Source: Acidobacteriaceae bacterium (GTDB lineage Bacteria; Acidobacteriota; Terriglobia; Terriglobales; Acidobacteriaceae). Taken from it: a DNA stretch of 64,000 nucleotides. The stretch covers positions 7,255 through 71,254 of the forward strand of contig PMHV01000052.1 of NCBI GenBank assembly GCA_003156805.1. The letters are read 5' to 3'. Shown here in pieces: positions 12,046 to 14,433 of the stretch; position 1 is the first letter of the stretch; every line of letters starts with the position of its first letter. Position numbers and translations under genes: made by a program. The notes under the pieces were generated by a model that saw nothing but the letters and a program-made list of their open reading frames with translations, searched no databases and was not told the origin of the DNA.

Positions 12046-13101
12046 ATGAACGTCCACATTAGTTACCGCCTTCACAAAAGTCCCGCCCTTGAAGAAGATA
12101 TCCAACATCACATTGATAAGCTGCGCAAATGGCTGCAAGTGTTTCGCCCGGAGCTGATTCATTTGAAGGGAGTGGTGGAAGAAAACTCCCCGCGCGAAGG
12201 AACCAGCGTTTCGCTCAACCTGCGGCTGCCTTCCGGGCAGATGGCAGTGCACACGACAGCGACAACTGCCGCGGCTGCGGTGAAGAGCGCATTCGAAGAT
12301 TTGCTGCAGCAGGTGAACAAGCACAAGGAATTGCTGCGCTCTTCGCACAAGTGGCGGCGACGGAGGAATGAGGCCTCTGAACGGCGGGGTTTTGCCGTGC
12401 CCTTCGAACAAACGGTGGCCGTAGTGTTTCCCGCGATGGTTTGCGCCGAGGATGTGCGGTCGTACGTTGACGCGAATCTTTCGAGGCTGGAGCGCTTCGT
12501 GGAACGGGAAATCTACTTTCGTGAGGCTTCGGAAGCGATTGCGCCCGATTCGATTGCCAAAGAAGAAGTAATCGACGAAGCCATCGCTGCCGCCCTGGGC
12601 GAAGGCAATGACAAACCGGAGCGTCTGGCGCTGGAACCCTGGCTCTACCGGTTGGCGCTGAACGCGCTCGATCAGTTGTCGCGTGCGGAGGAGAGCGCCG
12701 GCAACAGCGTGCATCTGGAGGAATCCGTGCGGCCTCGCAACGTAAAAGCGAGTGACGAGCCTGGATTGCAGTTCCATCAGCCGGACGAAGCGTTCACCGA
12801 AGAAACCATCATTGCCGATGACCGCGTGGCCACACCGGAAGAGATCGTGGGATCTGACGAGATGATGCGCCTGATCGCTTCGGCGCTGCGCGATGTTGGC
12901 TCCGATCATCGCGAGGCCTTCATCCTGCATGCGCTGGAAGGTTTCGGCGTGGACGAAATCTCGGCGATCACCGGCCTGGCGCCGGAGCGGGTGCTGGCTT
13001 CCATTTCCGCCGCGCGCGAACACCTGCGCAAGTCGCCGGGCTTTGTGGGGCAATTGAAAGGCAGGTTCATTTCCTCAGGGGCTGCGCTGTTGCAGTCTTG
13101 A
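12046..13101 (+). CDS. HPF/RaiA domain fused to a sigma-70-like module
   Basis: 351 residues. Residues 1 to about 105 read as a ribosome-hibernation HPF/RaiA domain: NVHISYRLHKSPALEEDIQ, a helix rich in Lys, SLNLRLPSGQMAVHTTATT and a second helix AAAAVKSAFEDLLQQVNKHKE. After a basic linker (RRRRNEASERR), residues about 130-220 resemble sigma region 2 (ERFVEREIYF, EEVIDEAIAAAL, EPWLYRLALNALDQL). After an acidic loop, residues about 280-335 resemble sigma region 4 (DHREAFILHALEGFGVDEISAITGL..ERVLASISAAREHLR). One polypeptide may therefore bind ribosomes and contact RNA polymerase or DNA. ATG 12046 has GAGG five bases upstream. The next gene encodes a release-factor-like protein. Confidence 0.75.
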   Translation: MNVHISYRLHKSPALEEDIQHHIDKLRKWLQVFRPELIHLKGVVEENSPREGTSVSLNLRLPSGQMAVHTTATTAAAAVKSAFEDLLQQVNKHKELLRSSHKWRRRRNEASERRGFAVPFEQTVAVVFPAMVCAEDVRSYVDANLSRLERFVEREIYFREASEAIAPDSIAKEEVIDEAIAAALGEGNDKPERLALEPWLYRLALNALDQLSRAEESAGNSVHLEESVRPRNVKASDEPGLQFHQPDEAFTEETIIADDRVATPEEIVGSDEMMRLIASALRDVGSDHREAFILHALEGFGVDEISAITGLAPERVLASISAAREHLRKSPGFVGQLKGRFISSGAALLQS

Positions 13102-13187
13102 CGGAGAGGGGTTGGAATAGAGCAGTTTCATTTCCTCAGGGGCTGCGCTGTTGCAGTCTTGACGGAGAGGGGTTGGAATAGAGCAGT
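13066..13187. repeat. perfect 61-bp tandem duplication across a gene junction
   Basis: 13066-13126 and 13127-13187 are identical, each starting TTCATTTCCTCAGGGG and ending AATAGAGCAGT. Copy 1 contains the last codons and TGA stop of the HPF-sigma gene. Copy 2 repeats these out of use and carries GGAGAGG and the GTG start of the next gene. The identity implies a recent event. Confidence 0.95.
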
Positions 13188-14433
13188 GATCACTCAGGAA
13201 CGAATCCGCGAACTAGCTCAGTTTGAAGATCAGGAAGGGGGAGCACTGAGCTTTTATTTTCAGCCCGCTGCGCCGCGGAACAAGGCGCACAATGAAGAAG
13301 CGATCCTCACCAAGGATCTGGTGCGGGACGCGCAGCGCCGGCTGGAGAGCAAAGGCAAGAACGCCGGGGCTCGCGCCGATCTGGATCGCGCGGCCCAGCG
13401 GTTGCAGGAATTACGCAGCAACGGAGCGCGGGCCAAGGCGATCTTCGCGTGCTCGGGCAAAGATTTTTGGCGGGAATATGATCTGCCTGCGCAACTTGCC
13501 GGAACCCAGCTCTTCCTGGATCGTCGCTTTCACTTGAAGCCCCTGGCCCATCTGCTGGGCGCGTTTCCCAGTTTGGGGGTGGTGCTGGTGGATCGGCACC
13601 GGGCCCGCCTGTTCGACTTGCGCCTGGGTGAACTGACCGAGCGCGAGGGCTTCTTTCACCCCGTTTCGCGGCGCGGCCGCAGCGACGGCTTTGCCGGATA
13701 CGATGGCGGCCACGCCGAACGCCGCGTTGCCGACGCAGCTCGCCAGCATTTCAAGGTGGTTGCGGAGTTCCTGAAGAAGGCAATGGAAAAAGGCGCGTTC
13801 GAGCGCTGGATTCTCGGCTGCCAGGAACCCCACTGGCCGCAGCTTGAGGCTCAGTTGCATCCTTACGTTGCGCAGAGATTGATCGGCCGCTTCCCTTCCG
13901 ACCTCGCACACATCACTCGTGATGCCATCCGGGAGCAGGCCGAACGAATCTTTGCGGAGTCGCAGCAGAACCGTTGCCACACATTGGTACAGGAAGCGTT
14001 AAGCAAAGCGGGGAGCAACGGACGTGGCGTCACGGGACTCCGGCGGGTGCTGCGCTCGCTGGAAATGGGCGAGATCCAAGCCTTGCTGCTGGGCGAGAAC
14101 TATCTCGCGCAGGCAGTCGAGTGCGGGAACTGCGGACATCTGGACGCGCACCTGGTGAGCTTTTGCCCGGCCTGCGGACGCGAAACCCGTGAGGTTGTAG
14201 ATGTGGGCGAGGCGATTCTGCCCCGGGTGATCCGCCGCGACATCGAACTTTTCTACGTCAGAGATGACGCCGAGTTTGACCGGGTGGGGAATATTGCCGC
14301 TTTGTTGCGCTTCCGCTCGGAACAGAAGTCACAGAATTCGAATGCACAACCGATCGCGACGGTCGCCGACCATCCGTCTCTTGGCCGCCAGTCTCGGCTC
14401 CGGGGGCGCTACCGGGGACTGGGAGCGGGCTAA
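13186..14433 (+). CDS. bacterial aRF1-type (baeRF) protein with zinc ribbon
   Basis: 415 residues from GTG 13186 (an upstream in-frame TTG at 13159 also lies in the duplicated segment). The sequence fits bacterial homologues of archaeo-eukaryotic release factor 1. There is an N-terminal alpha/beta domain (about 10-120), then LGVVLVDRHRARLFDLRLGE, which is a typical middle-domain strand. GGHAERR (about 174-180) stands where release factors carry GGQ-x-x-RR, so the catalytic Gln appears replaced by His. A helical region and a C-terminal domain with a zinc ribbon (C313, C316, C327, C330) follow, ending RVGNIAALLRFR. Such proteins are predicted to act in ribosome rescue or peptidyl-tRNA release. 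The last 30 residues look like read-on tail. It is co-oriented with the HPF-sigma gene. Confidence 0.75.
   Translation: MITQERIRELAQFEDQEGGALSFYFQPAAPRNKAHNEEAILTKDLVRDAQRRLESKGKNAGARADLDRAAQRLQELRSNGARAKAIFACSGKDFWREYDLPAQLAGTQLFLDRRFHLKPLAHLLGAFPSLGVVLVDRHRARLFDLRLGELTEREGFFHPVSRRGRSDGFAGYDGGHAERRVADAARQHFKVVAEFLKKAMEKGAFERWILGCQEPHWPQLEAQLHPYVAQRLIGRFPSDLAHITRDAIREQAERIFAESQQNRCHTLVQEALSKAGSNGRGVTGLRRVLRSLEMGEIQALLLGENYLAQAVECGNCGHLDAHLVSFCPACGRETREVVDVGEAILPRVIRRDIELFYVRDDAEFDRVGNIAALLRFRSEQKSQNSNAQPIATVADHPSLGRQSRLRGRYRGLGAG

Follow-up and report, generated by a model that had tools for sequence, protein, structure and literature searches.

We analyzed a 64,000-nucleotide stretch of the genome of an Acidobacteriaceae bacterium (assembly GCA_003156805.1, contig PMHV01000052.1, positions 7,255 to 71,254; hereafter the window). 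At positions 12046..13101 of its forward strand lies an open reading frame (ORF) for a protein of 351 residues (ATG at 12046, stop at 13101) which, according to profile matches, joins an N-terminal ribosome hibernation domain of the HPF/RaiA family to a C-terminal module resembling extracytoplasmic function (ECF) sigma factors. The next gene encodes a baeRF protein of the Balon superfamily. The fusion comprises an HPF/RaiA (S30AE) domain (residues 1-106, positions 12046..12363), supported by Pfam, AlphaFold2 (AF2) and VIA structure comparison; a first linker with a basic start (residues 107-133, 12364..12444); a sigma-2-like domain (residues 134-213, 12445..12684), predicted by AF2 as three helices and aligned with ECF controls, with Asp177 where these have Gln; an acidic second linker (residues 214-262, 12685..12831) with a QPDE motif at residues 245-248 (12778..12789); and a sigma-4-like domain (residues 263-330, 12832..13035), placed by PF08281, PF22233 and a residue table, according to which several basic residues of the ECF controls are gone from its recognition helix. 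Both linkers are of low predicted confidence.

In the window protein, the Pfam S30AE family matched residues 9-96 (E 1.5e-8, 35.7 bits against a cut-off of 23.7). The matches to the C-terminal module lie close to their cut-offs. PF08281 (region 4; residues 287-327) scored 25.0 bits with the whole protein and 25.9 bits with the C-terminal part alone (cut-off 25.7); the NCBIfam family TIGR02937 (sigma70-ECF) covered residues 165-329 (E 1.1e-10) with 41.4 bits, just below its cut-off of 42.9, and with the C-terminal part alone still reached only 42.6 bits; PF22233 (PhyR_sigma-like) gave 25.7 and 26.9 bits, respectively (cut-off 27). When 26 diverse members of the family were scanned singly at E<=0.001, S30AE was found in 23, Sigma70_r4_2 in 22 and PhyR_sigma-like in 20. 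Moreover, one family profile matched solved HPF structures at positions 1-104 (E ~1e-8) and solved sigma factors at about 165-326 (E ~1e-12). Because the domain matches recur among diverse members and one profile hits both folds, the fusion is not a product of chance; a fortuitous resemblance or an artefact of a single genome was rejected, as the fusion was matched in 35 of 37 genomes of the same genus (the window's own included) and in several acidobacterial families. A first-pass annotation, made from the sequence alone, had proposed exactly these two parts, an HPF/RaiA N-terminus and regions resembling sigma-70 regions 2 and 4. Both proposals were borne out, the former by the S30AE score and by the predicted HPF fold, the latter by the near-cut-off matches, by homology to ECF sigma factors over both domains and by the predicted sigma fold.

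The AF2 model of the whole protein (model 1) was computed from 21 sequences, the others being 49-78% identical to the window protein, and has a mean predicted local distance difference test score (pLDDT) of 70 and a predicted template modeling score (pTM) of 0.44. By blocks of ten residues, the three domains have pLDDT values of about 68-91, whereas residues 102-127 and 216-269 fall below 50. The HPF domain (pLDDT ~86 over residues 1-100) is structurally closest to 8rd8_D, the RaiA protein of the Balon-bound Psychrobacter ribosome (VIA Z 14.5, root-mean-square deviation (RMSD) 1.4 for 98 aligned residues). It shares with HPF/RaiA proteins (PF02482) the S30AE fold, the basic last helix and a score above the Pfam cut-off, but carries a few additional residues behind its first helix and forms its own clade with respect to 12 conventional acidobacterial HPFs (97 SH-aLRT, in a quick tree with long branches). 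The sigma-like module occupies the place of the C-terminal domain of long HPFs; Pfam found no match to that dimerization domain in the fusion at E<=10, although no positive control was run for that family.

For the sigma-like part, the best structural neighbors of model 1 are sigma factors in the closed, anti-sigma-bound state or PhyR (5uxx_C, Z 12.9, RMSD 4.8, 149 aligned; 2lfw, Z 11.0, RMSD 3.5, 138 aligned). When the module was modeled by itself (pTM 0.65), sigma-2 and sigma-4 again adopted the closed packing found in anti-sigma-bound ECF sigma factors and PhyR (5uxx_C, Z 13.6, RMSD 4.2, 153 aligned; 4qic_A, Z 10.9, RMSD 3.0, 123 aligned). With RNA polymerase-bound sigma-H, full-length alignments of both models had an RMSD of about 27 Å. 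In PhyR, a module with the sigma fold is joined to a regulatory domain and serves as a mimic. The fusion resembles it (PF22233, NF006623) in the closed arrangement of the modeled domains, but scores just below the Pfam cut-off, and the Pfam scan detected no receiver domain in the window protein, where the HPF domain stands instead.

A profile of the sigma half finds real acidobacterial ECF sigma factors across both domains. The 22 ECF controls were selected for their resemblance to the sigma profile of the fusion (E<1e-8) and are therefore near relatives rather than a random sample. In trees, 27 fusions form one clade apart from these 22 ECFs (support 98/97), and 28 sigma-like modules, including nine from Proteobacteria, likewise form one clade (100/99). 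The residues that distinguish the two groups were tabulated for 24 non-redundant fusions and 18 non-redundant ECFs. At position 177 in region 2.2, all 18 ECFs have Gln, which we take to be a contact to the beta-prime clamp helices of RNA polymerase in known sigma factors; none of the 24 fusions does, 21 having Asp, and Gln is absent from this position in all 89 rows tallied. Phe180 is found in 4/24 fusions versus 18/18 ECFs and Asn206 in 2/24 versus 16/18. Basic residues, presumably promoter contacts, occur in 2/24 fusions versus 16/18 ECFs at position 216, in none versus 8/18 at 319 and in 5/24 versus 16/18 at 322; the latter two positions presumably face the -35 element. The mean net charge of the module is -15.6 in the fusions and +0.6 in the ECFs.

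Thus, the fusion shares with ECF sigma factors (TIGR02937, PF08281) homology over sigma-2 and sigma-4 and a compact fold, but differs from them by the replaced Gln of region 2.2, the loss of several basic residues, its strong acidity and the motif in its second linker. This motif, QPD(E/D), is present in 57 of 72 full-length acidobacterial rows (close relatives included), in all 13 alpha- and betaproteobacterial rows and in three of four rows from the heat-resistance islands described below, the fourth having QHDD. Two entries, a broken gene (L226) and an ordinary sigma factor (L228), were left out of these tallies, while a plasmid copy without the HPF part (L227) was kept in them and in the tree. 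Since the marks of sigma factors are lost throughout the family, the fusion is probably no ordinary sigma factor, and we rejected that assignment on the basis of the residue and charge table. The module looks like a sigma mimic, which keeps the fold and lacks the marks of function, rather than a sigma factor; it has the appearance of a former transcription-start factor that has apparently lost its grip on DNA. Every segment of the protein is under purifying selection: across 20 independent pairs, the ratio of nonsynonymous to synonymous substitution rates was 0.077 for the HPF domain, 0.15 for linker 1, 0.088 for sigma-2, 0.105 for linker 2, 0.125 for sigma-4 and 0.27 for the tail.

Across the phylum, 28 of 396 sampled genomes match the family profile at E<=1e-25. 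Of these, 24 encode fusions (in G284 and G396 only in part) and four, all of one genus, only the HPF part; a profile count of 92 in 297 genomes consists mostly of matches to region 4 only and was not used as a count of fusions. The fusion is not always the only HPF of its genome. The window genome has two S30AE matches, the fusion and a conventional HPF (G000:C63, L160) that by eye reads as a long HPF, and most genomes of the genus likewise have a second, stronger match, G033 being an exception with the fusion alone. In a sister family (f2), by contrast, all 14 S30AE matches at E<=0.001 lie inside fusion ORFs; they come from 13 of 14 genomes, one genome having none and one having two, and seven of these genomes are at least 95% complete. 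Among 23 other genomes, the fusion is the only S30AE match above the cut-off in eight (G056, G068, G223, G276, G292, G300, G324 and G348), while in G191, G315 and G323 the fusion itself scores below it. Lineages in which the fusion is the sole HPF suggest that its HPF half is functional. HPFs of the same clade also occur as standalone proteins, for example in G059, where one stands directly before a baeRF gene, and in G055; the loci recorded are L101 6475-6840 (with a baeRF gene directly after it), L102 6208-6588 and L210-L213. The sigma-like tail is therefore not obligatory for this HPF clade.

The family extends to proteobacterial plasmids. A tblastn search with a distant acidobacterial member (L039) returned 20 plasmid records, all covered to at least 80%; the organisms among the best 15 of these 20 were Alphaproteobacteria and Burkholderiales. 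With the window protein as query, 24 records matched, 18 of them covered to at least 80%. The deposited names include sigma-70 family RNA polymerase sigma factor, FliA, RNA polymerase subunit sigma-28, sigma factor-like helix-turn-helix and hypothetical protein. The acidobacterial fusion profile matched all 12 intact plasmid copies retrieved (L215-L225 and L229) with E values of 2e-49 to 1e-58, from profile position 1-20 to 329-336; those with an annotation mostly bear sigma-70, sigma-28 or FliA names. Five of the islands carry Hsp20 genes, FtsH and a ClpK-like ATPase, then the fusion and HdeD, and four of these five additionally have TrxC and a cation:proton antiporter. Two further plasmid islands have Hsp20 genes, the fusion, GroES, GroEL and DnaK; ATPase, fusion and HdeD genes occur together in Caulobacter, and fusion, HdeD and YfdX genes in Sphingomonas. 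On a Phenylobacterium zucineum plasmid (L227 7917-8564), a sigma-like module with QPDD occurs for which no HPF match was found. That island also encodes Hsp20, Lon, TrxC, FtsH and a protein called 'host attachment protein', which is the name of a Pfam family that scores on the window's baeRF protein as well.

Judged by profile search, a diverged member of the family is orf11 of the locus of heat resistance (LHR), or transmissible locus of stress tolerance (tLST). A Paraburkholderia member used as query matched 302 plasmid records, including 126 from Klebsiella, 74 from Enterobacter, 32 from Acinetobacter and 29 from Escherichia, and in four regions that were examined the match was a 381-residue hypothetical protein after hdeD-GI (L230, L231 and L232, 9001-10146; L233, 7253-8398). 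In three of the four regions, trx-GI follows; the Acinetobacter region shows no trx annotation. This assignment was tested with a profile built from acidobacterial rows alone (E values at Z=1e6, controls among 6710 ORFs). The orf11 proteins matched the fusion profile over positions 1-331/332 with E values of 4.2e-23 to 7e-28, outscoring every control, of which the strongest true ECF reached 2.7e-19 and the strongest conventional HPF 6.2e-8. With a profile of the HPF half, residues 1-114 of orf11 gave E values of 8e-4 to 1e-2, where the weaker conventional HPFs also fall; no match to this profile came from the ECF controls listed. Pfam, S30AE included, and NCBIfam detected no domain in E. coli orf11, and Pfam gave weak region-4 matches under the cut-off in the Klebsiella and Acinetobacter proteins. 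From the full-length match, we conclude that orf11 of the LHR/tLST belongs to the HPF-sigma family.

At the DNA level, orf11 was matched in 152 of 5,426 complete E. coli genomes, in 144 over at least 80% of its length, and at the protein level in 302 of 72,556 plasmid records (E<=1e-5), a count that takes in distant members. A DNA search of the E. coli genomes with the copy from Shinella found nothing, probably because the genes are too diverged. Relative to the window gene, orf11, known as a gene from the LHR/tLST literature (PMC8290217 and PMC8407380, in the parts available to us), has in common the HPF and sigma parts and a linker reading FEFYQ(P/H)DD; it is about 30% identical to the betaproteobacterial query and lies between hdeD-GI and trx-GI with no baeRF gene beside it. 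The assignment offers a first molecular hypothesis for a gene that has been described as unlike proteins of known function.

Taken together, these data lead us to favor, with modest confidence, the view that the fusion is an HPF/RaiA-family hibernation factor with an ECF-sigma-derived tail that recruits a protein and does not read promoters. The fold, the homology, the selection and the loss of sigma residues come from our tests; ribosome binding and the partner are inferred. During starvation or proteotoxic stress, the HPF domain would, as in the HPF family, occupy the mRNA and tRNA channel of idle 30S subunits, and in the window's genus the co-encoded Balon-type baeRF would block the A site of these ribosomes. 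Attached by a flexible linker, the sigma-like module, together with its acidic linker, would then protrude from the ribosome and use the sigma fold to bind a partner. Proteins that normally handle sigma factors would be the most probable class of partner, the candidates being an anti-sigma factor, for which the module would act as a titrating decoy in the manner of PhyR, and core RNA polymerase; that it is an anti-sigma factor in particular we put forward only tentatively. Capture of such a partner would let the number of idle ribosomes change transcription. The first-pass annotation had suggested that ribosome state is sensed here and passed to transcription, which is possible, though probably not by way of an ordinary sigma factor.

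The stress-related genomic surroundings count in favor of this reading: a Balon-type gene in the window, Hsp20, FtsH, ClpK-like and HdeD genes or Hsp20, GroES, GroEL and DnaK genes on plasmids, and the LHR. A broader proposal, which we regard as speculative though by no means far-fetched, is that the fusions constitute a new family of ribosome-bound sigma mimics, extending from Acidobacteriota, where some are paired with Balon, to orf11 of the mobile islands of Enterobacteriaceae, and that they signal to the transcription machinery how many ribosomes are idle by sequestering an anti-sigma factor or RNA polymerase. If this were true, ribosome hibernation would be part of a transmissible stress-tolerance locus. 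For the coupling of translation shutdown to transcription in dormancy, one protein that combines a domain for parking 30S subunits with a sigma-shaped, apparently non-promoter-reading module is a direct candidate; the membership of orf11, from an island spreading among E. coli and Klebsiella, suggests a testable link between idle ribosomes and stress control.

The main rival to a tail that recruits a regulatory partner is a purely structural role on the ribosome, in which the module would stand in for the C-terminal domain of long HPFs, as a dimerizer or by providing ribosome contacts, for example in 100S particles, with no link to transcription. We consider this unlikely, if clearly the strongest of the competitors. 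It would fit the genomes of f2 and the eight others in which the fusion is the only S30AE match (in the eight, the only one above the cut-off), as if it had replaced a long HPF, and the loss of sigma-specific residues is what co-option as a scaffold would produce. However, most genomes of the window's genus possess a second, stronger S30AE protein, which in the window genome reads as a long HPF, the linker motif is conserved across phyla with no obvious need for it in a simple dimerizer, and the Phenylobacterium plasmid copy has the sigma-like part with QPDD and no HPF match.

Two further explanations keep the module at RNA polymerase, and we judge both to be highly improbable. A working ECF sigma factor that is held inactive on ribosomes, or freed from them, through its HPF domain is among the least likely readings, even though homology spans both sigma domains, plasmid members are annotated as sigma-70 in public records, the WLYRLA...N of region 2 is retained in the window protein as aligned with ECFs, and some basic positions are kept or gained. 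It is at odds with the complete absence of Gln177, with the loss of several ECF basic positions and the strongly negative net charge, and with position 324, which is Asp in four of nine non-redundant proteobacterial rows. Alternatively, the module might bind core RNA polymerase without reading promoters, so that the polymerase is parked or tethered at idle 30S subunits in a joint hibernation. The region 2.2 helix and the acidic residue that follows the Gln position are retained (at position 178, Glu in 20/24 fusions and Asp in 3/24), and the acidic linker sits where, as we assume, the linkers of ECF sigma factors thread through the polymerase; yet the Gln presumed to contact the clamp is replaced family-wide, mostly by Asp.

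Several observations weigh against the proposal of a hibernation factor with a non-promoter-reading, recruiting tail. In the HPF half, S30AE scores fall below the Pfam cut-off in the fusions of G019 (22.4 bits), G191 (20.8), G315 (21.8) and G323 (17.7) and in four of seven plasmid copies scanned (L217-L220), being above it in L215, L216 and L225. In the sigma-like half, some basic residues are retained in the fusions (position 324 in 17/24, 328 in 18/24, 317 in 11/24), and others are commoner there than in ECFs (12/24 versus 1/18 at 209, 11/24 versus 1/18 at 210, 19/24 versus 1/18 at 311). The QPD(E/D) motif is missing in all 14 rows of f2 and in L049. The closed packing is weak evidence because the AF2 models are moderate, as their pTM values and linker pLDDT indicate, and a Foldseek search with the module-alone model gave no match at E<=0.001, polymerase-bound sigma-H and sigma-E ranking at the top. 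A search of 15 genomes at E<=0.1 turned up no NepR, with a positive Caulobacter control; the PhyR-NepR system as such was rejected on this ground, and a PhyR-like mode of action would need another anti-sigma factor. Two plasmid loci give no support from a stress context, L226, a broken gene beside metal-efflux genes, and L225, which is unannotated. Finally, in the accessible part of a study of LHR-bearing E. coli K-12, the deletions reported to lower heat or chlorine resistance do not include orf11 (PMC8407380), and LHR2 carries a disrupted orf11 according to the portion of PMC5383660 that we could consult. With no deletion effect named and the LHR2 copy disrupted, orf11 is seemingly dispensable for acute survival there.

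Precedents exist for parts of this arrangement. HibA of archaea, an HPF/RaiA domain joined to a CBS module, is a precedent for an HPF attached to a signaling-type module (PMC13324472). Unlike the fusion with its N-terminal HPF and sigma-like partner, HibA has the HPF domain at the C-terminus and CBS as its partner; in the part of that paper available to us, sigma occurs only in a supplier's name. The fusion of an HPF to another module, the pairing of HPF with baeRF and the existence of tLST orf11 as a gene are thus already known, while the combination of HPF and sigma-like parts in one protein and the placing of orf11 in this family seem to be new: the literature searched, the coverage of which excluded most subscription journals and bioRxiv, yielded no account of such a fusion.

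The gene downstream of the fusion (13186..14433, forward strand) encodes 415 residues from a GTG start. It belongs to baeRF family 10 (PF18854, E 3.2e-24, 86.3 bits against a cut-off of 27.1), has GGH at the GGQ position (residues 174-176, 13705..13713) and retains a zinc-ribbon Cys4 motif (CxxC...CxxC, 14122..14175), as do 46 of 47 rows tabulated. GTG at 13186 is likely the start, rather than TTG at 13159, because the N-terminus then aligns with the ATG starts of relatives. Families of hibernation factors in NCBIfam match it (MSMEG_1130, E 4e-19; Rv2629, E 3e-13; AOC03_06830, E 2e-8), although far under their equivalog cut-offs (68.8 versus 480, 49.8 versus 320 and 33.9 versus 330 bits), and the best solved match is the Balon protein MSMEG_1130 (PDB 8v9j_z, E 1.6e-6). 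The first-pass description of a release-factor-like neighbor with GGH in place of GGQ was therefore correct, the nearest relatives being hibernation factors of the Balon type. Like Balon and baeRF family 10 proteins, it is a three-domain aeRF1-like protein without GGQ; it differs by its GGH, in place of the Gln reported for family 10, and by scores short of the equivalog cut-offs. Of the 47 rows, 43 have [GA]GH; the other four comprise an AGR, a GSH, a divergent loop and a truncated sequence. None has Gln at the GGQ position, and an active release factor was rejected for this reason.

The published record, in the portions available to us, describes a well-conserved Gln in baeRF family 10 and recurrent HPF-baeRF neighborhoods (PMC6514570). 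For Balon, it reports that the genes lie most often beside RaiA, that a single ribosome was observed to carry both Balon and RaiA, and that Balon operons include Hsp20, DnaK, HdeD and alternative sigma-70 factors, one of which might be such a fusion (PMC10901736).

PF18854 adjoins the fusion on the same contig in 32 of the 35 same-genus genomes that have it; in the other three, one partial baeRF ORF lies at a contig end and two fusions are themselves at contig ends. In the rest of the window's family, the pair is found in G133, G180, G315 and G323, while G268 has the fusion without it; there, a gene with a metallo-beta-lactamase fold follows (L120 7634-8269), its best NCBIfam match being hydroxyacylglutathione hydrolase, below the cut-off. 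Outside the family, the pair occurs in G056 (as a partial ORF) and at one of the two fusion copies of G434 (L205 and L214), a baeRF ORF at L205 24-1175 being downstream of that copy. It was not seen at 14 loci of f2 nor at 14 distant loci, and no match to baeRF family 10 was detected in any of the 14 f2 genomes or in 11 of 19 other fusion genomes searched. The gene pair, from which the first-pass annotation had drawn its hypothesis, thus holds within the genus but is not a general rule; as the fusion recurs without baeRF family 10, the pair is not the functional unit and was rejected as such. Beyond this pairing, conserved neighbors vary with the clade (a lytic transglycosylase with LysM in f2, an aminotransferase and an HD/OB gene elsewhere) and suggest no common partner.

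The gap between the two genes is 84 nt in the window, compared with a median of 31 nt over 61 loci, which, like the loci surveyed for adjacency of the pair, include some genomes twice, from two collections. A tandem duplication of 61 bp on the forward strand (13061..13187; 2.1 copies, 98% matches) spans the end of the fusion gene and widens this gap; it is possibly recent or an assembly artefact. At the other loci of the gap survey, the baeRF gene starts with ATG. The fusion gene is split into two ORFs in L103 (G017), L084 and L226, through a frameshift, decay or assembly error. The 380-residue ORF right after the standalone HPF of L102 (6772-7911) has no match in Pfam (E<=0.01) or NCBIfam (E<=1). 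In L175, L177 and L181, an HPF-like domain is followed by what by eye resembles a cold-shock domain, which would be another HPF fusion in the phylum.

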